Shown here: positions 44,242 through 53,304 of the stretch, piece by piece
Layout: the number at the start of each line of letters is the position of its first letter
Numbering within the stretch: position 1 is the stretch's first letter
Assembly: GCF_022606355.1 (NCBI RefSeq)
Contig: NZ_JAHHZQ010000002.1
Coordinates: 868,001-932,000, forward strand
From: Leifsonia shinshuensis
GTDB lineage: Bacteria > Actinomycetota > Actinomycetes > Actinomycetales > Microbacteriaceae
DNA length: 64,000 nucleotides
Direction of reading: 5' to 3'
Made by a program: the position numbers and the translations under genes
Notes under the pieces: model-generated
What the model was told of the DNA's origin: nothing
Database searches by the model: none
The model's input: the letters and a program-made list of their open reading frames with translations, nothing else

Positions 44242-45401
44242 CGATCAAGGCAGTGACCCCACGCGTCGTCGAGCCGCCGGCGAGCCTGGGGATGGGGGTG
44301 AGTGTGTACCCGTCGGCCACGGCGATGGTGTGGCCGGGCGAGGGGCACGCGCACGAGGCGGTCGCGGTTCCCGGGGTGCGGCTCGGACCGGGCGACACGC
44401 TCGTGGAGGTGGAGCTCGCGACCGTCTGCGGGTCCGATGTCGAGACGGTGCTCGGTCACCGGCCGGCGTCGACGCCGCTGGTGCTGGGCCACGAGCAGGT
44501 CGGGCGCGTGATCGCGCTCGGGCGCGGTGGGGCGAAGACGACCGACGGCAAGCGGGTGGTGCTCGGCGAGCGCGTGGTCTGGTCGGCGGCCGTGCCCTGC
44601 GGCCGTTGCGCGCGCTGCCGCCGCGGTGTGCCGCAGCAGTGCGCGAGCCTCCAGAAGTACGGGCACGAGCGCATGCGACGCGGCTGGGAGCTGTCGGGAG
44701 GCTTCGCGACGCACACGCACATCCTCGGCGGCACTCCGCTGGTGGCGGTGCCGGAGCACCTCCCTGCCGAAGTCCTCGCGCCCGCGTCCTGCCCCACCGC
44801 GACGGTCGCGGCAGCGCTCGAGGCGGCCGCGGCGATCGTCCCGCTCGACGGCGCTCTTGTGGTCATCGCGGGCGCCGGGATGCTCGGGCTGACGGCCGCG
44901 GCGATGGCGACGGAGGCCGGCGCGAAGGTGGTCGTGAGCGACCCGGTTCCGGAGCGCCGCGACGCCGCGCTGCTGTTCGGCGCCGTCGCGGTCGCCGACC
45001 CTGCCGCTGCACCGGGCTCGCGCTCCGGGCTTCCGCACGCGCTCGCCAAGGTCGGAGGGCGAGCTTCCGCGCCGTCCATCGCCCTCGAGCTCTCCGGCGC
45101 GGACTCCGCCGTCCGCTCGCTGCTCTCCGTCGTCGATGTCGGCGGCGTGCTGGTCCTCGCCGGGTCGGTGTCGCCCGGATCCGACCTGCCGGTCGTCCCC
45201 GAGATCCTCGTGCGGCACCTGCTGACCATCCGCGGCGTCCACAATTACGCGCCGCGACACCTGGAGGAAGCGGTGCGGTTCCTGTCGGACGCGGGCACGA
45301 AGTACCCGTTCGCACAGCAGGTCGGGGCCGTGTTCCCTCTCGCCGAAGTGGATGCGGCGCTGGCGAGCAGCGGGTTCCCCCGGGTGGCGGTGCGGCCGTA
45401 G
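44238..45401 (+). CDS. Zinc alcohol dehydrogenase, phosphonate-cluster type
   Basis: The 387-residue MDR protein has the structural-zinc Cys set [15 protein letters not shown] near 118, the catalytic-zinc site around TVCGSDVE and LGHE near 63-84, and the NAD loop [12 protein letters not shown] near 213. It matches TIGR03366 (proposed HpnZ), the alcohol dehydrogenase of the putative phosphonate catabolism cluster. GTG 44238 overlaps the HAD stop. With the FAD oxidoreductase it would handle an aminoalkyl- or hydroxyalkyl-phosphonate, but no C-P lyase or transporter is present. Confidence 0.9.
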
Positions 45402-45471
45402 GAGCCGTTTTCCTGAGCGTTCTCACATCTTCGAGTTCGTATCCTGGGATCCGCATGACCGTGAGGACCCC

Positions 45472-46128
45472 GTGATCGAGACCCCCACCGCCCAGAGCGC
45501 CACCGCCCAGAGCCCCACCGGCAGCCAGCCGCACCTCGCGCCCGCCACCGTCCCGTCGCCCGGGAGGCCGAGCCGCGTCATCAGCGCGCTGATCTTCTCC
45601 AGCCGCTGGCTGCAGGCGCCGCTGTATCTGGGGCTGATCGTCGCTCAGGCGGTCTACGTCTACGTGTTCGTGGTGGAGCTGTGGCACCTCACCGAGAAGG
45701 TCGTCTCCGACCCGACCCACGTCGACGAGGCCTACGTGATGCTCGCCGTTCTCGGGCTGATCGACGTGGTGATGATCGCCAACCTCCTGATCATGGTGAT
45801 CATCGGGGGCTACGAGACGTTCGTCTCGCGCGTGAACGTGAACGGGCATCCCGATCAGCCCGAGTGGTTGTCGCACGTCAACGCCAACGTCCTGAAGGTC
45901 AAGCTGGCCATGGCGATCATCGGCATCTCGTCCATCCACCTGCTCAAGACGTTCATCGCCGTCGGCGATCTCGGCGCCGCGAACGGCGGGTCGATCGACG
46001 GGGAGCGGTACACGTCTGTCGGCGTGTTCTGGCAGGTCATGATCCACCTGGTGTTCATCGTCTCGGCCGTGGCGCTGGCCGCGATCGATCGCATGTCGAA
46101 ACCGCGCGAGGCCGCGGCGGCGCACTGA
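45472..46128 (+). CDS. UPF0114 (YqhA) family membrane protein
   Basis: The 218-residue protein has four hydrophobic helices (starting [20 protein letters not shown] near 43, and [20 protein letters not shown] near 90) and the conserved GYETFVSR segment, all typical of UPF0114. A Thr/Gln/Pro-rich leader of 35 residues precedes the first helix. The family is widespread and of unknown function. GTG 45472 is chosen because GAGGA lies 6 bases upstream. Confidence 0.88.
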
Positions 46129-46182
46129 CCCCGTGCGGTCGAACCGCTGACGTGCGCGGCCGCGTCGTGCCAGGCTGGAGGC

Positions 46183-46794
46183 GTGTCCGCCGACCCGCTC
46201 GCCCGCTTCTTCGAGCTGTTGCGTGCGCTCCCCGAGCCGTCCGATGCGGAGGCGCTGTACGGCGTTGACGTCGAGGGGCGGCGCCGGGAACGCAATCTCC
46301 GGCGCTACTTCGCGATGCCGCACGCCTCCGTGCTGCTGCTCGGCGAGGCCCCGGGCTGGCGCGGGATGACCGTGACCGGGGTGCCGTTCGTGTCCGTGCG
46401 GGAGGCTGAGGCGGGCGTGGTGCCGGGGCTGGAGCTTCCGGAGGATCCGCAGGCTCCGTGGGAGGCCTCCAGCAGGGTGGTGTGGGCGACGCTCCGCGAC
46501 TGGCGCGGCCCGATCCCGCTGTCGTGGCCGGTGTATCCGCTGCACCCGTTCGTGGCAGGCGATCCGCACAGCAATCGCACGCCGCGGCCTGCCGAGGTGC
46601 GGGCGGGCGCGCCGGTCGCACTCGAGCTGATCCGCGCGCTGGATATCGAGACCGTGGTGGCCGTCGGCCGCAAGGCCCAGGGCGCGATCGCGACGGCCGG
46701 CCTGGAGGCGCCCGCGATCCGCCACCCCGCTCAGGGCGGTGCGACGCAGTTCGCCGAGCAGTTGATCGAACTGAACAGGGCACTCACGCTCTGA
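46183..46794 (+). CDS. Uracil-DNA glycosylase family protein
   Basis: The 203-residue protein has the UDG-superfamily motifs LLLGEAPGWRGM (water-activating loop) near 50-61, NRTPRPAEV near 130 and RHPAQGG near 184. The GEAPG form and the lack of a 4Fe-4S Cys set resemble family 5-like or uncharacterised UDG proteins, so base specificity cannot be fixed. Its last 11 bases overlap the end of the convergent EamA gene. The GTG start at 46183 is tentative; CAGGCT sits 6 bases upstream. Confidence 0.8.
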   Translation: MSADPLARFFELLRALPEPSDAEALYGVDVEGRRRERNLRRYFAMPHASVLLLGEAPGWRGMTVTGVPFVSVREAEAGVVPGLELPEDPQAPWEASSRVVWATLRDWRGPIPLSWPVYPLHPFVAGDPHSNRTPRPAEVRAGAPVALELIRALDIETVVAVGRKAQGAIATAGLEAPAIRHPAQGGATQFAEQLIELNRALTL

Positions 46795-47686
46795 CGGTGC
46801 GCACGCCCGGGAGCCTCACGGTGAGCACGACCAGGCCGGCGCCGATGAGCGCGAGGCCGGACCAGCCCAGCGGTGACAGCCGTTCGCCGACGACCGCGAC
46901 GGCGAGGATGGCGGCCACGGCCGGTTCGCACAGGGTGAGGATCGTGGCCGAGCTGGCGCGGACGCGCGCAAGCCCGATGCCGAAGAGCACGTAGCCCAGG
47001 AACATCGGGACGAGAGCCATGTAGATCGCCACCGACACGGTGGCCGGACTGTCCAGGATCGGTTCTCCGGTGGCGACGAGGACGGGGATCAGGGCCAGGC
47101 CTCCCAGCCCGAACACGGCACCCATCGCGGCAGGCCGCTCGACTCCCCGGCGCATCAGGCGCTGCACGGCCCAGGTATAGAGGGCGTAGGTCGCACCCGC
47201 GACGAGCCCGAGACCGACGCCGCTCAGTGTTGCCGCTGCGCCGGAGTCGTTCGCTTGCAGACGGGAGAAGCAGAGCGCCGCGCTCCCGATGATCGCCAGC
47301 GCGGCCGAGCCGTACCAGCGGCCCGAAAGGGGCGCTTTGTCGAGGAGGCGTTCCAGCACGGCCGAGAAGATGGGCGCGGAGGCGATCGTGATCACCGTGC
47401 CGACGGCGACGCCCGCGAGGCGCATGGACGCATAGAACGCCAGTGGATAGACCGCGACCGAGACGGCCCCGAGCGCGACGAGTCCCCGAACGGGCCGAAG
47501 CCGGCGGCGCGAGGCCCACAGCGCGGGCACGGCGATGAGTCCCTGCAGGATGCCGCCGACCCCCATCGCGAAGGCGCCGATCGCGATCGGCGGAACGGCC
47601 GGAGCGAAGCTCGCCGCCGTCCCCGTGGTGCCCCAGAGGACGCCGGCGAGGAGGACGGCACCGGTTCCCGTCCACGACCGCTTCAC
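46784..47686 (-). CDS. EamA family transporter under TetR control
   Basis: The 300-residue protein has ten membrane helices in two EamA repeats (GVLWGTTGTAASF near 16 and the E-V-G-E-R-L segment VVGERLSPLGW near 268). It is the second gene of a TetR-EamA operon; GTG 47686 overlaps the TetR stop (GTGA). The repressor and its palindromic operator upstream suggest inducible export of a toxic or excess compound. The substrate is unknown. Confidence 0.87.
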   Translation of the reverse strand: MKRSWTGTGAVLLAGVLWGTTGTAASFAPAVPPIAIGAFAMGVGGILQGLIAVPALWASRRRLRPVRGLVALGAVSVAVYPLAFYASMRLAGVAVGTVITIASAPIFSAVLERLLDKAPLSGRWYGSAALAIIGSAALCFSRLQANDSGAAATLSGVGLGLVAGATYALYTWAVQRLMRRGVERPAAMGAVFGLGGLALIPVLVATGEPILDSPATVSVAIYMALVPMFLGYVLFGIGLARVRASSATILTLCEPAVAAILAVAVVGERLSPLGWSGLALIGAGLVVLTVRLPGVRTVRA

Positions 47687-48255
47687 AGGTCGGAGATCAG
47701 CTCTGCGGCGATGCGCCTGGCTCCGATCAGGCGGCCGGCGTCGCCCTCGAGACCGGCTCGGGCCATCGAGCCTTCGAGCAGGAAGGAGAGGTGCTCCGCG
47801 AGCTCGCCGGCGCGCGTCGCGTCGGTGAGCAGGGAGAGTTCGTCGCAGAGGAGGCGTTCGACCTCTTCCTTGTGCCGGCGCACGGCCTGTCGCCCGGGAG
47901 CGTCCCGGGGCAGCTCCGCAGCCGCGTTGAGGAGACCGCATCCGCGAAAGCCGTGCTCGTAGGCGGCGTCGGCATGGTCGATGTAGGCGTCGAACACCGC
48001 GAGCAGCCGTTCCGCCGGCGTCGTCGCCGCCTCCGCTCGGGCACGGTACAGTCCCAGCCACTCCCCGTGGCGGGCGTCGAGGTAGGCCTCCACGAGAGCC
48101 GACTTCGAGGCGAAGTTGTTGTACAGGCTCATCTTCGCCACGCCCGCCTCGGCCGTGATCACATCGATCCCGGTCGCCGCGACGCCGTCGGCGTAGAAGC
48201 GGCGCGCTGCCGCGTCCAGGATGCGCTGCCTGGCGCCGCCGCGGCGTGTGCTCAT
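47683..48255 (-). CDS. TetR family repressor
   Basis: The 190-residue protein has a TetR helix-turn-helix at 10-55 (GIDVITAEAGVAKMSLYNNF) and a C-terminal ligand domain with HGFRGCGLLNAAAELP near 100, a pattern of AcrR/QacR-like repressors. ATG 48255 lies 13 bases from the perfect 36-base palindrome at 48268-48303, so autorepression of this gene and the EamA transporter is the likely mode. Confidence 0.92.
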   Translation of the reverse strand: MSTRRGGARQRILDAAARRFYADGVAATGIDVITAEAGVAKMSLYNNFASKSALVEAYLDARHGEWLGLYRARAEAATTPAERLLAVFDAYIDHADAAYEHGFRGCGLLNAAAELPRDAPGRQAVRRHKEEVERLLCDELSLLTDATRAGELAEHLSFLLEGSMARAGLEGDAGRLIGARRIAAELISDL

Positions 48256-48267
48256 GATGACCGTCTG

Positions 48268-48303
48268 CTCCCTACTAGGTAGGTCAGTCTACCTAGTAGG
48301 GAG
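48268..48303. promoter_or_regulatory. TetR operator, perfect palindrome
   Basis: Arms 48268-48282 (CTCCCTACTAGGTAG) and 48289-48303 pair perfectly over 15 bases with a 6-base GTCAGT spacer. This is longer than most operators and lies just upstream of the TetR start on the minus strand. It is the clearest regulator-site pair in the window. Confidence 0.8.
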
Positions 48304-48464
48304 TGGGATGTCATCCCATTCCGCAGCTCAGGAGGCCGCCGACGCCGCGTAGGCCTGCGCAGCTGGACCCGCTGGCGGCGTCGACAATCGTCAGGCTTGA
48401 GGAAGAGCTCGACGCCGAACTGTGGCCTTGAAGACCCGCTGAGCACATTCTTCGTCGCGGCGAT
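48304..48464. other. Intergenic stretch with possible gene remnant
   Basis: No complete gene is visible. On the plus strand the frame ending at the TGA at 48429-48431 (LDPLAASTIVRLEEELDAEL, followed by WP and stop) reads like the C-terminal tail of a real protein, but no start or upstream coding sequence is present. It may be debris at the left edge of the 48.4-50.8 kb island. GGGATGTCATCCC is a short palindrome here. Confidence 0.35.
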
Positions 48465-49604
48465 CTATCGCGACCCCTCGAGCTCCGCTGCAAGTGAACG
48501 AAGGCGCGCGGCCAGGTCCACATCACCGGCAGGAGCGGCTGTGTCGATTCGTGGCTGACCTTCCTTTGCGAATCGAAGCCTGACCGAGGGGTGAACGATG
48601 AGGTCTTCAGCCTCGTCGGCGATCTCAGAGATCGATGTCAGCCCCTTGGTCGCGATGGCCCACCTCAAATATGCAATATCGTCTGCGCGCCTCAACGCCA
48701 TCGTTGTGACCGCAGACAGTTGTGCGCTCGCGACGACTCGTTGCCCTTCGAGTTGAACCATTACCCAATTGGCCAACGCCTTCGATTCTGTGACCCAGCG
48801 AGCGCGTCCGCGCATGGCGCGAGCGATGCTCTTCTGGAACTGCTCGAAATCGAACGGCCGGCGCTCGCCGCTCTTCTTGATGACCGTCTCGGGGTAGAGC
48901 AAGTTCGTGGGCGACCACCACGTCTCCTCCCGCTGCGTCTGCACCGGTGGCAGAGCGCGACTCAGCCGGGCGTAGTTGTGCTCTGCGAAGAGCCACGAGA
49001 GGAACGCTGTCGCATCCGCGAAACCGGCGTACTCGTCGGGGCGATGCGCAAGATTGATCTGCCCTCGAACCCCGAGGGCGTAAAGAACGTGGGGGATGCG
49101 CGTTGATGTGTCATTGAGGCTTCGCTCGACCTCCTCCATCACGATCACATCCCAGACCGCGACAGCCCCGGCGGCGGCCTCGTGCTCTGCACGTTCCCGG
49201 GCGTTCAGCGGGTCGCCGAGTTCACTGATTCGCTCGGCCAAGCTCGAGGTCACATCCGAGATGACTCGGCTGAGTTGCGCATCGGTTATGTGCCCCAAAG
49301 ACGCTCGACGTATGTCGCGCTGCAAGCGTGCAGGAGAGTACCGCGACTCGATCTTCTGATCCGTACTTCGGCGGATCCAGATCTCGGTGAGTGACGTCGT
49401 CCTTGTCGATTCCTCCGTGGTGAACGTGTGGCTTGTGTCCCGTGTACATCGACGTCGTCGTGTGATCCTGTCCCGAGTTGCGTTGACACGTGTGTAGGAG
49501 ACCTCAGAGCTCGATTCCACACCTGCCGCTCTGCAGATCGGACACTGGAACTTTGTTCTGGATGGGTACTCATCTCTCGCGGAGGATTCCATATTCGCAT
49601 CCAT
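48465..49604 (-). CDS. NrdR-like protein with two ATP-cone domains
   Basis: The 379-residue protein starts with a zinc-ribbon like that of NrdR: CPIC at 21-24, then RRRRC at 49-53 and FTTEE at 61-65, with His59 in place of the fourth Cys. NrdR has one ATP-cone and about 150 residues. Here a degenerate ATP-cone (about 70-185, SPARLQRDIRRAS) is followed by a second (about 240-345, IKKSGERRPFDFEQFQKSI). It is probably a nucleotide-sensing DNA-binding regulator. ATG 49604 has TGGAGA 6 bases upstream; ATG 49616 is an alternative. It is divergent from an IMPase-like gene. Confidence 0.75.
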   Translation of the reverse strand: MDANMESSARDEYPSRTKFQCPICRAAGVESSSEVSYTRVNATRDRITRRRRCTRDTSHTFTTEESTRTTSLTEIWIRRSTDQKIESRYSPARLQRDIRRASLGHITDAQLSRVISDVTSSLAERISELGDPLNARERAEHEAAAGAVAVWDVIVMEEVERSLNDTSTRIPHVLYALGVRGQINLAHRPDEYAGFADATAFLSWLFAEHNYARLSRALPPVQTQREETWWSPTNLLYPETVIKKSGERRPFDFEQFQKSIARAMRGRARWVTESKALANWVMVQLEGQRVVASAQLSAVTTMALRRADDIAYLRWAIATKGLTSISEIADEAEDLIVHPSVRLRFAKEGQPRIDTAAPAGDVDLAARLRSLAAELEGSR

Positions 49605-49668
49605 ATATGTCTCCATTCGGGCGGGACTAGGGAGAGCGCGTGTGTCAGAAAACTATATCTGTACTGCC
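49598..49668. promoter_or_regulatory. AT-rich divergent control region
   Basis: Between the NrdR-like and phosphatase-like genes, ATCCATATATGTC (around 49598-49611) and AAACTATATCTGTA (around 49649-49663) are both AT-rich and resemble NrdR-box half-sites (ACTATAT-type), about 51 bases apart. This region is much lower in GC than its surroundings. The zinc-ribbon protein may bind here, but the match to the NrdR box is loose. Confidence 0.4.
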
Positions 49669-49758
49669 TCGAAACTCGCGCAGATATTCGTTGTTTGCAA
49701 CCGATTTTGGTGCGACACTGAAAGAGCCAACGTCGGCCTCATAGCGCAGGAGACAGAC

Positions 49759-50781
49759 TTGACCATCACCGCATTCGGATCGGACTCGGGCAGCTACCCT
49801 GACGCTCTGGCCCGCTGCCTTCAGATCGCTCAAATCATCGCCGCACGGACCGCTCGCCGCATGAACGCATTCATGATCGCCGACGACGACCCTTTCGCGG
49901 AAGTCGACACAGACCGCCAGGACCACTCCGGCTCCAAGGCGATCCGAATCGATACCCACCTCGGCGAATTCGTGAACGAGCTCATCAAGTCGCACGAGCT
50001 CATGGAGCTCGCCCTTGGCCCGATCACGTGCTTCCAGGAAGAGCGCCGCGCGGCATACAGCTCTCGCGACGATCGTGCCCACGTCCGCGTCATCGTCGAC
50101 CCCCTTGATGGCTCTAGCATTCTCGGAGCTTTCGGTACCGGGTGCGTCTCGGTCCTGGTGTACTCGAATCTCAACAGCAAGGGAGAGTGGCGCCTCTACG
50201 CGGGCGCGATCGCGCTCAACTCGGGGATACTGTTCTCCTACAAAGTTCGACGTCGCACGATTCGAAAGCCGGAGATCGACGCCGAGATTTTCGCACACAC
50301 GTTCAACCCGCACCCTTCCGGCGATGCCGGCACCGACCCGGACCTCGCCTTCAAGGCGTTCGATCTCGAGGACCGGAATCTCCGCAAGAAGGACGGTGTG
50401 AGCCTGATCAGCGCATCCGCCTCCGAAGGTCGCCGTATCCGCGCCGCCGAATACCTTGGCAGCATCCTCCCCTCGTTGAAGTTTCAAGGATCGTTCGCCG
50501 GCAACCTCTCCATCTGGGGCGCCCTGCTCGGAACGGCCTCCGTCATTCACGACCCCGAAAGGGCCACGCTTCACGACGCGAACTACGTCGTCTTTCTGTC
50601 CGCAACGGACTGGCATGTCTACGATGCGACGACGAACCACCCGCTGGACATCGATGGACTCTTCAACATCGAACCTCAGGCGGGAGTCACGGAAGAGAAG
50701 CGCGTTCCTGCGATGATCGCCGTCCGCGATCCAGAGATCCTCTCGCGTGCCGAAAGCTACACCCAGCAGAGAAGCGCCTGA
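49759..50781 (+). CDS. IMPase/FBPase-like phosphatase superfamily protein
   Basis: The 340-residue protein carries DPLDGSS at 114-120, the metal-binding motif of the FBPase/inositol monophosphatase superfamily, preceded by an EE pair at 94-95 where that fold has its metal-ligand Glu and followed by the expected core strands. The rest is divergent, so the substrate (sugar phosphate, inositol phosphate or a nucleotide such as PAP) cannot be named. TTG 49759 is preferred for its AGGAGA 6 bases upstream; GTG 49642 would add 39 unlikely residues. Its GC is lower than its neighbours. Confidence 0.72.
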   Translation: MTITAFGSDSGSYPDALARCLQIAQIIAARTARRMNAFMIADDDPFAEVDTDRQDHSGSKAIRIDTHLGEFVNELIKSHELMELALGPITCFQEERRAAYSSRDDRAHVRVIVDPLDGSSILGAFGTGCVSVLVYSNLNSKGEWRLYAGAIALNSGILFSYKVRRRTIRKPEIDAEIFAHTFNPHPSGDAGTDPDLAFKAFDLEDRNLRKKDGVSLISASASEGRRIRAAEYLGSILPSLKFQGSFAGNLSIWGALLGTASVIHDPERATLHDANYVVFLSATDWHVYDATTNHPLDIDGLFNIEPQAGVTEEKRVPAMIAVRDPEILSRAESYTQQRSA

Positions 50782-50799
50782 CGTCGGTCAAACCAAGGA

Positions 50800-50830
50800 C
50801 CCTCGACGCGCTGACAGAGCGCGTCGAGGG
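50800..50830 (+). terminator. Terminator of phosphatase-like gene
   Basis: A 13-base perfect stem (50800-50812 with 50818-50830) and a 5-base GACAG loop lie 19 bases after the stop, followed by a short T-containing stretch. It separates the island from the PadR promoter. Confidence 0.65.
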
Positions 50831-50873
50831 TTCCGCGTCTTCTAGCGTCGGCCTCACCATGTTGCGCGGAGGC

Positions 50874-50916
50874 TTGACTTCACGGTCACTCCTCGCGTAC
50901 TATTCCACGTGGAATA
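50874..50916 (+). promoter_or_regulatory. PadR-MFS promoter with 16-bp palindromic operator
   Basis: TTGACT (50874-50879), 18 bases and TACTAT (50898-50903) make a good sigma-70-type promoter. TATTCCACGTGGAATA (50901-50916) is a perfect 16-base palindrome overlapping the end of the -10 and the transcription start. A PadR repressor binding there would block its own operon. Confidence 0.78.
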
Positions 50917-50957
50917 ATCCTCTCCGATCATCACTACGACCCGGAAACCCACGATCC

Positions 50958-51539
50958 ATGCCGCACACGCCCGCCCTGACCCCTCTCGCCGTCGCAGCGC
51001 TCGCGCTCCTCGCCGAGGGCCCGACGCACCCGTACGAGATGTATCAGACACTCGTGATGCGCTCGGAGGATCGGCTCGTCAAAGTGCGCCCAGGATCGCT
51101 GTACCACACGGTCGACCGGCTGGCCCGTCAGGGACTGGTGCGGGCGACCGGCACCGAGCGCGAGGGCAACCGACCGGAGCGCACCACCTACGAGATCACG
51201 GAGGAGGGCACCCTGGCTCTCGGCCAACGCGTCGCGGACATCATCGCGACGCCGGTCAACGAGTTCCCGGAGTTCCCGCTCGGTCTCGGCGAGGCGCACA
51301 ACCTGCCCGTCGAGACCGTGATCGACCTCCTGCGCAAGCGCGTCGGGCTGCTGCGTGCCGACCTGGCGCTGCTCGACGACGGCATCCACCGCGTCAGGGC
51401 GAAGGGGCTGCCCGCGAAGTACTGGCTCGACGTGCGCTACCTGCGCACGATGGCGGAGGCCGACGTGGCCGCGCTCGAAGCCCTCATCGACGACCTCGCC
51501 TCGGGAGAGATCTCCTGGGACGAGGAGAAGAAGCACTGA
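50958..51539 (+). CDS. PadR family repressor
   Basis: The 193-residue protein has the PadR winged helix (LALLAEGPTHPYEMYQTL near 15-32, then VRPGSLYHTVDRLARQGLV near 45-63) and a long C-terminal dimerisation helix bundle. PadR proteins often repress a neighbouring efflux pump and are released by its substrate. The MFS pump begins 13 bases after this stop. The ATG at 50958 is the only sensible start. Confidence 0.93.
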   Translation: MPHTPALTPLAVAALALLAEGPTHPYEMYQTLVMRSEDRLVKVRPGSLYHTVDRLARQGLVRATGTEREGNRPERTTYEITEEGTLALGQRVADIIATPVNEFPEFPLGLGEAHNLPVETVIDLLRKRVGLLRADLALLDDGIHRVRAKGLPAKYWLDVRYLRTMAEADVAALEALIDDLASGEISWDEEKKH

Positions 51540-51552
51540 GAGAAAGAATCAC

Positions 51553-53277
51553 ATGGAACGCCAACTGAAGCCATGGCCCGCCCTTTGGGCGCTCGTCATC
51601 GGGTTCTTCATGATCCTGATCGACACGACCATCGTGTCGGTCGCCAACCCGTCGATCATGAAGGGCCTCGACCTCGGAACCGACTACAACGCGGTGATCT
51701 GGGTCACCAGCGCCTACCTGCTGGCCTACGCCGTCCCGCTGCTGATCACCGGTCGCCTCGGCGACCGTTTCGGCCCCAAGAACATCTACCTGATCGGCCT
51801 CGTGATCTTCACGCTGGCCTCTGCGTGGTGCGGGTTCTCCGGCGTCATGCCGGGAGGCGGCATCGGGATGCTGATCGCCGCTCGCGTCGTGCAGGGCCTC
51901 GGGGCCGCGCTGATGACCCCGCAGACGATGGCCGTCATCACCCGCATCTTCCCGCCGGACCGCCGGGGCGCGGCCATGGGCCTCTGGGGCGCCGTCGCCG
52001 GCGTCGCGACCCTGATCGGCCCTCTGCTGGGCGGCGTGCTCGTCGACTGGCTCGGCTGGGAATGGATCTTCTTCATCAACGTGCCCGTCGGGGTCGTGGC
52101 CTTCATCCTCGCGATGCGCCTCGTGCCCAAGCTGCCGACGCACACGCACGCCTTCGACCTCCTCGGCGTGCTGCTCTCGGCCGTCGGTATGTTCCTGCTG
52201 GTCTTCGGCATCCAGGAGGGCGGCACCTACAACTGGGGAACCATCGGAGACGGACCGTTCTCGGTGTGGGGGCTGATCATCTCCGGAATCGTCGTGCTCA
52301 TCGCCTTCGTGGTGTGGCAGGCGCTCAACAAGAAAGAGCCGCTGCTTCCGCTCCCGCTGTTCCGCGATCGCAATTTCTCGCTCTCCAACGGCGCGATCAC
52401 CACGGTCGGCTTCGCGGTCACGTGTATGGCGCTGCCGCTGGTGTTCTACTTCCAGACGGTGCGGGGCCTCACCCCGACCGAGTCGGCCCTGATGCTCGCC
52501 CCGACGGCGGTGTTCTCGGGCTTCCTCGCGCCCGTGATGGGCAAGCTCATCGACAGGATCAACCCGAAGTGGGTGGCGACCCCGGGGCTGGTGCTGTTCT
52601 CGCTGTCGCTGTTCCTCTACTCGCGGATGCTCACGCCGGATGTCAGCATCTGGTGGCTGCTCGTCCCGAGCGCGCTGCTCGGCATCGCGATGTCGGGCGT
52701 CTGGGGTCCGATCTCAGCCACCACGACCCGCAACCTCCCGATGAACCAGGCGGGAGCCGGGTCGGGTGTCTTCAACACGACGCGCCAGATCGGCGCCGTG
52801 CTGGGCAGCGCGTCGATCTCGGCGCTCATCACCGGGCGCCTGGCCGCCGATCTGCCGAAGGCGCCGGGCGGCGCGGCACCGAGCGCCACGACCGGCACCG
52901 AGCTGCCGGCCTTCCTGCACGCCGGGTTCACCCAGGCGATGTCGGAGGCGCTGCTCCTGCCCGCCGCGGTCGCCTTCCTCGGCGCACTCATCGTGATCTG
53001 GTGGGAGAAGCCGCGACCGCCCGCGTGGGGACCGGGTGCTGCGGCTCCGGCCGGGGCCGGCGCAGCGGCGCAGGGTGCTGTGCAGGGTGTGCCCGAGCCG
53101 GCGACCGCCGGTGCTGGTGACGGTGACGGTTCCGGTGTCGGTGCCGCCCACGGCGCGCACGCGGCCGCTGCTCCCGTCGACGCCGTGCAGCACGGCTCGC
53201 ACGCGGCACCGTCGGCCGACGGCTCCCGTGACGGCGACGAGCACCACGGCATCCACGCCGCGCCCGCCACCGACTGA
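51553..53277 (+). CDS. DHA2-type MFS drug efflux transporter with His-rich tail
   Basis: The 574-residue protein has 14 predicted membrane helices and the DHA2/EmrB motifs LGDRFGPKNIY (motif A) and a conserved IDTTIVSVANPSI start, typical of proton-driven drug export. After the last helix at about 490 there is an unusual hydrophilic tail of about 75 residues, Ala/Gly/Asp-rich with seven His (HGAHAAAAPV, HGSH, EHHGIH). The paired PadR gene suggests substrate-induced expression. Confidence 0.92.
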   Translation: MERQLKPWPALWALVIGFFMILIDTTIVSVANPSIMKGLDLGTDYNAVIWVTSAYLLAYAVPLLITGRLGDRFGPKNIYLIGLVIFTLASAWCGFSGVMPGGGIGMLIAARVVQGLGAALMTPQTMAVITRIFPPDRRGAAMGLWGAVAGVATLIGPLLGGVLVDWLGWEWIFFINVPVGVVAFILAMRLVPKLPTHTHAFDLLGVLLSAVGMFLLVFGIQEGGTYNWGTIGDGPFSVWGLIISGIVVLIAFVVWQALNKKEPLLPLPLFRDRNFSLSNGAITTVGFAVTCMALPLVFYFQTVRGLTPTESALMLAPTAVFSGFLAPVMGKLIDRINPKWVATPGLVLFSLSLFLYSRMLTPDVSIWWLLVPSALLGIAMSGVWGPISATTTRNLPMNQAGAGSGVFNTTRQIGAVLGSASISALITGRLAADLPKAPGGAAPSATTGTELPAFLHAGFTQAMSEALLLPAAVAFLGALIVIWWEKPRPPAWGPGAAAPAGAGAAAQGAVQGVPEPATAGAGDGDGSGVGAAHGAHAAAAPVDAVQHGSHAAPSADGSRDGDEHHGIHAAPATD

Positions 53278-53304
53278 GCGCTGCCGCACCGTTCGCACTG
53301 CGAA

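Follow-up and report, generated by a model that had tools for sequence, protein, structure and literature searches.

A tandem ATP-cone NrdR-like regulator opposite a putative FBPase-like phosphatase in an apparently acquired cassette of Leifsonia shinshuensis

The 64-kb stretch of Leifsonia shinshuensis DNA analysed here (the window) carries an NrdR-like regulator with two ATP-cones, encoded divergently from a protein that resembles class I FBPase. The reading that we favour, to which we assign a probability of about one half, is that the two genes belong to an acquired, self-contained cassette in which the regulator would serve as a nucleotide-responsive local repressor of the divergent promoter region and of the phosphatase.

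Organization and composition of the locus

The features on which the argument rests are as follows, by window position:

46777..50866, no strand: insert holding a transporter (which we take to be EamA-type), TetR, the regulator and the phosphatase; absent in three congeners; right edge at 50866 or 50891
48465..49604, minus: tandem-cone NrdR-like regulator, 379 aa, from Pfam, profile comparison and predicted structure; start inferred from GGAG spacing
49407..49556, minus: zinc ribbon, residues 21-70 of 383 (C25, C28, C57, H63)
49035..49388, minus: ATP-cone 1, residues 77-194, degenerate in sequence
48585..48896, minus: ATP-cone 2, residues 241-344, of the NrdR type
49602..49609, no strand: CATATATG at the regulator start; its ATATAT has no second copy in the 64-kb window
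49605..49758, no strand: AT-rich divergent intergenic region, putative operator-promoter, GC 0.52
49759..50781, plus: class-I-FBPase-like phosphatase, 340 aa from TTG; frame open from GTG 49642
50098..50118, plus: DPLDGSS metal-binding motif, residues 114-120, in register with class I FBPase
50799..50831, no strand: 14-bp hairpin 3' of the phosphatase gene, terminator-like on the minus strand only

The regulator frame, 48465-49616 on the minus strand, encodes 383 aa from its first ATG (49616). Its fifth codon, ATG 49604, has GGAG six bases upstream and is, from that spacing, the likely start; it yields the 379 aa and the His59 given by the first-pass annotation, and both open reading frames of that annotation exist. 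Residue numbers below follow the 383-aa frame, and the NrdR reference residue R17 is that of S. coelicolor. For the phosphatase, TTG 49759 (AGGAG six bases upstream) is a likelier start than GTG 49642, since both of its relatives begin at the corresponding residue.

A 154-bp AT-rich gap separates the two divergent genes. GC content is 52% in the gap, 60.7% in the regulator and 61.7% in the phosphatase, and the lowest-GC kilobase of the window (49301-50300, 58.3% vs 71.1% for the whole window) falls inside the cassette, as expected of the low-GC island initially described. That description also had the pair tightly flanked by an operator and a terminator, which is borne out in part: an inverted repeat (48268-48303) and the hairpin are both present, but the T-run of the hairpin lies on the minus strand only, so that it makes no clear terminator for the phosphatase. 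Terminator-like sites in the region number 3, vs 1.6 +/- 1.2 expected. The inverted repeat is perfect, with 15-bp arms (CTCCCTACTAGGTAG and CTACCTAGTAGGGAG) around a 6-bp spacer, and sits just upstream of the TetR gene (47683-48255, minus strand), for which it is likely to be the operator.

Acquisition of the insert

When 45352-53300 was compared with 28 congeneric genomes (its own included), the right flank (from about 50866) was found in all 28, and nothing in 48351-50866 was found outside G000 among the matches listed. In three congeners (G304, G796 and G788) only 38, 14 and 25 bp separate the left neighbour, which ends at about 46776, from the right one, an arrangement that we read as the empty site for an insert of ~4.1 kb. 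We take these neighbours to be a UDG-like gene on the left and PadR on the right. The empty site in three congeners and the low GC together uphold the horizontal transfer originally proposed. A fourth congener, G799, holds other DNA in the site and has a transporter-TetR-like stretch on a different contig, so the insert is probably composite.

Two further observations concern this site. The interval 46777-50866 appears as an insertion hot spot, and the cargo of G799 includes a long open reading frame (L075) resembling a large ATPase-type regulator. Upstream of the gene at 50960, presumably PadR-like (without a Pfam match), lies the palindrome ATTCCACGTGGAAT (50902-50915), of which one base differs in a congener (L076); it is likely a PadR operator.

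A second ATP-cone in an NrdR-like regulator

Pfam recognizes an ATP-cone in the regulator at 35 bits (cut-off 25.8), which is cone 2, and scores Zn_ribbon_NrdR at 18.8 bits, below the cut-off of 27.2; TIGR00244 (NCBIfam) reaches 47 bits and misses its cut-off of 124.65. The Pfam search of the window regulator did not detect cone 1 as a second ATP-cone. Several comparisons nevertheless point to one: the family profile has two matches to E. coli NrdR (9gex), one over the ribbon and the first half of cone 1 (i-E 3.2e-7), the other over cone 2 (4.5e-8), and a cone-1 profile matches an NrdR-cone profile at E 1.6e-6 (17 rows), vs 0.017 for the best column-shuffled control in three tests. This comparison drew on 23 of the 26 family rows, with P0003, P0005 and L021, whose cone 1 is incomplete, left out. 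Single sequences alone are no proof of cone 1, because 5 of the 23 segments were equalled by at least 9 of 500 shuffles, and the direct comparison of the family's middle module with its C-terminal module was not significant (E 0.1).

Two bridging relatives (L033 and L034) each have a ribbon and two Pfam ATP-cone stretches, with whole-protein scores that exceed the cut-off. The AF2 model of the regulator (pLDDT 85.5) and VIA-align agree on two cones, of which cone 2 lies above the Pfam cut-off of PF03477 and cone 1 is predicted to have the same fold. Taken together, profile comparison, bridging relatives and predicted structure argue strongly that the regulator is an NrdR paralogue in which an additional ATP-cone separates the ribbon from the C-terminal one, and the double-cone, NrdR-like protein recognized in the first pass stands.

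Altered zinc, DNA and nucleotide sites

PMC9110341 describes NrdR as an RNR-specific repressor of 140-220 residues whose zinc ribbon has two CxxC motifs and whose one ATP-cone binds two nucleotides. The box is read by R17 and D15, and the DNA backbone is contacted by RRRR and R37; K50, R51 and E56 bind the inner nucleotide, and the outer nucleotide involves K62 and Y128. In contrast to the single cone of NrdR (PDB 7p37, 9fxk, 9gex; PMC9110341, PMC12176259), the window regulator has two and is about twice as long, and the tandem-cone regulators have in addition an inter-cone linker with a conserved Trp and Pro. Its ribbon combines C25xxC28 with C57x5H63 (CxxxxxH), so that His63 is the fourth zinc ligand, whereas the bridging L033 and L034 have the two CxxC motifs of NrdR. 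Among the DNA-contact residues, R43 (equivalent to R17) and R53-R56 (equivalent to RRRR) are retained, and D15 and R37 are replaced by Y41 and T64.

Cone 2 retains V245, K247, K248 and F255. Its outer nucleotide site looks lost, because the equivalents of E56, K62 and Y128 are R253, Q259 and T323. Cone 1 has R83 for K50, R97 for K62 and Y93 for F58, and the bridging relatives have Lys at both the K50 and K62 positions of this cone. Because the outer-site residues of cone 2 are gone and cone 1 is basic at the K50 and K62 equivalents, the regulator probably holds one nucleotide per cone rather than two in one cone.

Two ATP-cones are also found in P. aeruginosa NrdA, a ribonucleotide reductase subunit. 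In such subunits, however, the cones sit on the enzyme, and in the window protein they sit on a zinc-ribbon regulator. In the available text of the open-access literature on NrdR and ATP-cones (including PMC9110341, PMC12176259 and PMC12051234), we found no two-cone NrdR.

A nearly unrepresented FBPase-like phosphatase

The phosphatase carries the FBPase/IMPase metal-site motif E..DPxDG[ST] in register, in keeping with the assignment to the DPLDGSS phosphatase superfamily made at first sight. Profile matches are weak: PF00316 gives 14.6 bits vs a cut-off of 34.8 (all 3 members match weakly, best E 0.025), and the NCBIfam FBPase model gives E 0.0041. A four-row alignment with E. coli Fbp shows 23% identity with the metal motif aligned, and the direct comparison with Fbp is again weak (4.4 bits; hhalign 28.6%). 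With E. coli CysQ, HMMER aligns eight residues only, DPLDG[ST], at -4.1 bits (hhalign 6.4%). By these scores, all of them weak, class I FBPase seems a closer relative of the protein than CysQ is, and the nucleotidase initially considered gains no support. Class I FBPase (PF00316, E. coli Fbp) and the phosphatase are of similar length and have DPLDGSS, the preceding Glu and a late acidic residue in register; Fbp has Asn after GSS where the phosphatase has Ile, and the YECN of Fbp and its late Glu become HDAN and Asp. The AF2 model, built with only 3 sequences in the alignment, has a pLDDT of 30.

A search of 5.8 billion proteins returned 3 phosphatase records among 3958 candidates, the window's included. 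One of 398 and one of 337 genomes had it, each time the window. In a set of 396 genomes there were 2 matches at E <= 0.01, the window and a 17-bit stretch near the DPLDG region that is interrupted by four stops, and plasmid and phage records gave 0 and 0. This appears to be a nearly unrepresented enzyme family, with three members found.

Pairing of regulator and phosphatase

The other two phosphatases lie on contigs of 3285 and 6453 bp, equal in size to those of two regulators, P0002 and P0003. These regulators are 74 and 76% identical to that of the window, and the enzymes 75 and 80%. Pairing in the closest relatives is thus moderately supported, adjacency there being read from equal contig sizes. 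A further regulator, P0005, shares a four-row clade (100/99) with the regulators of the window, P0002 and P0003, in which it groups weakly (90/67) with P0002; among the 3 phosphatase records, no partner for it was detected. At 15 other regulator loci with readable flanks (18 flank stretches, 3 loci counted twice), there were 0 phosphatase relatives (best 6.9 bits). The co-occurrence of the two genes, named as a check in the first-pass annotation, is thus supported in the closest relatives and not seen at these 15. They lie outside the clade; the regulator family is wider than the pair, and its general target would differ from this phosphatase.

The missing partner at those loci also suits a reading in which two unrelated accessory genes simply move as a pair, with a regulator that controls nothing but its own gene and a phosphatase that is a metabolic scavenger. 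The weakness of the operator evidence given below (104/1000) fits it as well, but it sits poorly with the matching divergence and equal contig sizes in both of the other phosphatase records, and with an AT-rich divergent promoter region common to both genes; we consider it improbable.

Operator search and control of ribonucleotide reductase

NrdR-box-like ATAT motifs had been noted in the gap, a claim of which one part survives. ATATAT does occur once in 64 kb, at 49603. In an NrdR-box pair, about three helix turns lie between the two boxes; the highest-scoring pair of the gap reaches 18 of 32 at a spacing of 31 and was equalled by 104 of 1000 randomised sequences, vs 0 of 1000 upstream of the genome's own ATP-cone gene (an 874-codon frame, presumably the RNR large subunit). 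A canonical box pair in the gap thus lacks statistical support, although the gap's best pair ties for the window's best at 30-33 bp spacing. The same test gave 1/1000 at L072 and 43 to 559/1000 at 12 relatives. Randomised sequences in the ATATAT and box-pair tests were first-order Markov samples, not exact shuffles. ATATAT-like cores lie upstream of 6 of 11 regulators (0 to 0.5 expected for each; L019 and L020, two of the six, are near kin) and are missing from 5, with L005 and L026 left out of 13 upstream regions. These cores are no more than suggestive. The lack of a significant box pair in the gap, the 5 of 11 upstream regions without cores, the partnerless P0005 and the 15 loci without the phosphatase all count against local control.

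Alternatively, the regulator may act in trans on the promoters of the host ribonucleotide reductase, as a mobile-element NrdR paralogue tuning dNTP supply, with the phosphatase an independent accessory. The retained R17 and RRRR equivalents, the plasmid and island relatives that lack the phosphatase (0/15 loci) and the host box pairs recognisable upstream of the large ATP-cone gene and at L072 all speak for this. We nonetheless find it unlikely: the contacts D15 and R37 are replaced by Y41 and T64, the genome already has an NrdR-type gene, and the pairing with the phosphatase in three known cases is left unexplained. The gene in question (L001) is separate and of the ordinary NrdR type, so a housekeeping role for the window regulator is not needed.

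Distribution and neighbourhoods of the regulator family

Among 398 family-level genomes, 12 match the regulator, full-length only in the window and G212; in the other 10 the match begins no earlier than residue 243, and these resemble ordinary NrdRs. A set of 396 phylum-wide genomes gave 3 matches at E <= 1e-20 (window included), and 84,980 species genomes scanned with a single pattern yielded 6 loci, each with an actinobacterial title. Eight of 72,556 plasmid records match, 7 of them actinobacterial (Rhodococcus 5, Paenarthrobacter, Cryobacterium) and one, from Pseudomonas, an ordinary nrdR adjoining ribD; surrounding regions were inspected for 7 of the 8. Phage records held 0 regulators in 50,697, and metagenomes contributed members P0004-P0011 and P0015-P0017.

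Neighbour genes were called by a heuristic, and 20 chosen proteins were run through Pfam, 10 of these through PADLOC. Neighbourhoods vary, with type I restriction-modification genes (L017), phage integrases (L027, L066), transposases (L020, L021, L029) or, at L065, an N6/N4 methylase together with a GmrSD-HNH protein. Carriage by mobile elements is suggested. In Rhodococcus sp. 14-2483-1-2, a tandem-cone regulator has nearby a PD-T7-3 homologue (L028:12635-14017, minus strand; PADLOC E 5e-25) as well as a protein weakly resembling NACHT.

The restriction-modification genes of L017, the methylase and GmrSD-HNH protein of L065 and the PD-T7-3 homologue of L028 could indicate a stress or defence module, in which a change in adenine-nucleotide pools (for instance on phage infection) frees the phosphatase, which then depletes a phosphorylated metabolite. 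This is quite improbable: PADLOC 2.0.0 matched 0 models to either protein at E up to 1, which also leaves the phage-defence role raised in the first pass without backing, neither protein is in any phage record, and neighbours vary by locus in islands that are rich in defence genes anyway.

Two other loci are recorded here in their own right. A 1400-aa TPR protein with a sub-threshold STAND NTPase match (L066:2809-7011, plus strand) has a phage integrase on one side and, on the other, a tandem-cone NrdR whose ribbon is canonical; it had no PADLOC match, and the locus is a candidate defence island. Elsewhere in the phylum, genomes G401 and G416 encode proteins with an N-terminal ATP-cone fusion (L067:2332-3183, minus strand; L071:1851-2678, plus strand), whose partner we take to be a restriction-endonuclease-type domain (ECKYHN motif).

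Discussion

Under the favoured reading of a self-contained, locally controlled cassette, the regulator would, by analogy with NrdR, form dimers that contact DNA by way of the ribbon, and its cones, each probably holding one nucleotide, would drive higher oligomers according to the adenine nucleotide bound. It would most likely repress the divergent promoter region that it shares with the phosphatase gene and release the DNA on a change in adenine-nucleotide pools. The retained R17 and RRRR equivalents, the matching divergence of the pair, the divergent layout around the AT-rich gap and the separate ordinary NrdR-type gene speak for this reading. The enzyme, FBPase-like and metal-dependent by the class of its motif, would then act on a small phosphorylated metabolite.

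More broadly, and only tentatively, tandem-cone NrdR paralogues with a CCCH ribbon may constitute an actinobacterial family, often on plasmids and islands, that has split its nucleotide sites and controls accessory genes, not RNR, the gene here being a new FBPase-like phosphatase family. If true, the cassette would be a nucleotide-controlled phosphatase switch built on NrdR. A family that combines two cones, an altered zinc site and a neighbour other than RNR would show the sensing module re-used for other genes, and would offer a natural comparison, one site per cone against two in one, for asking how NrdR oligomers depend on nucleotide load.
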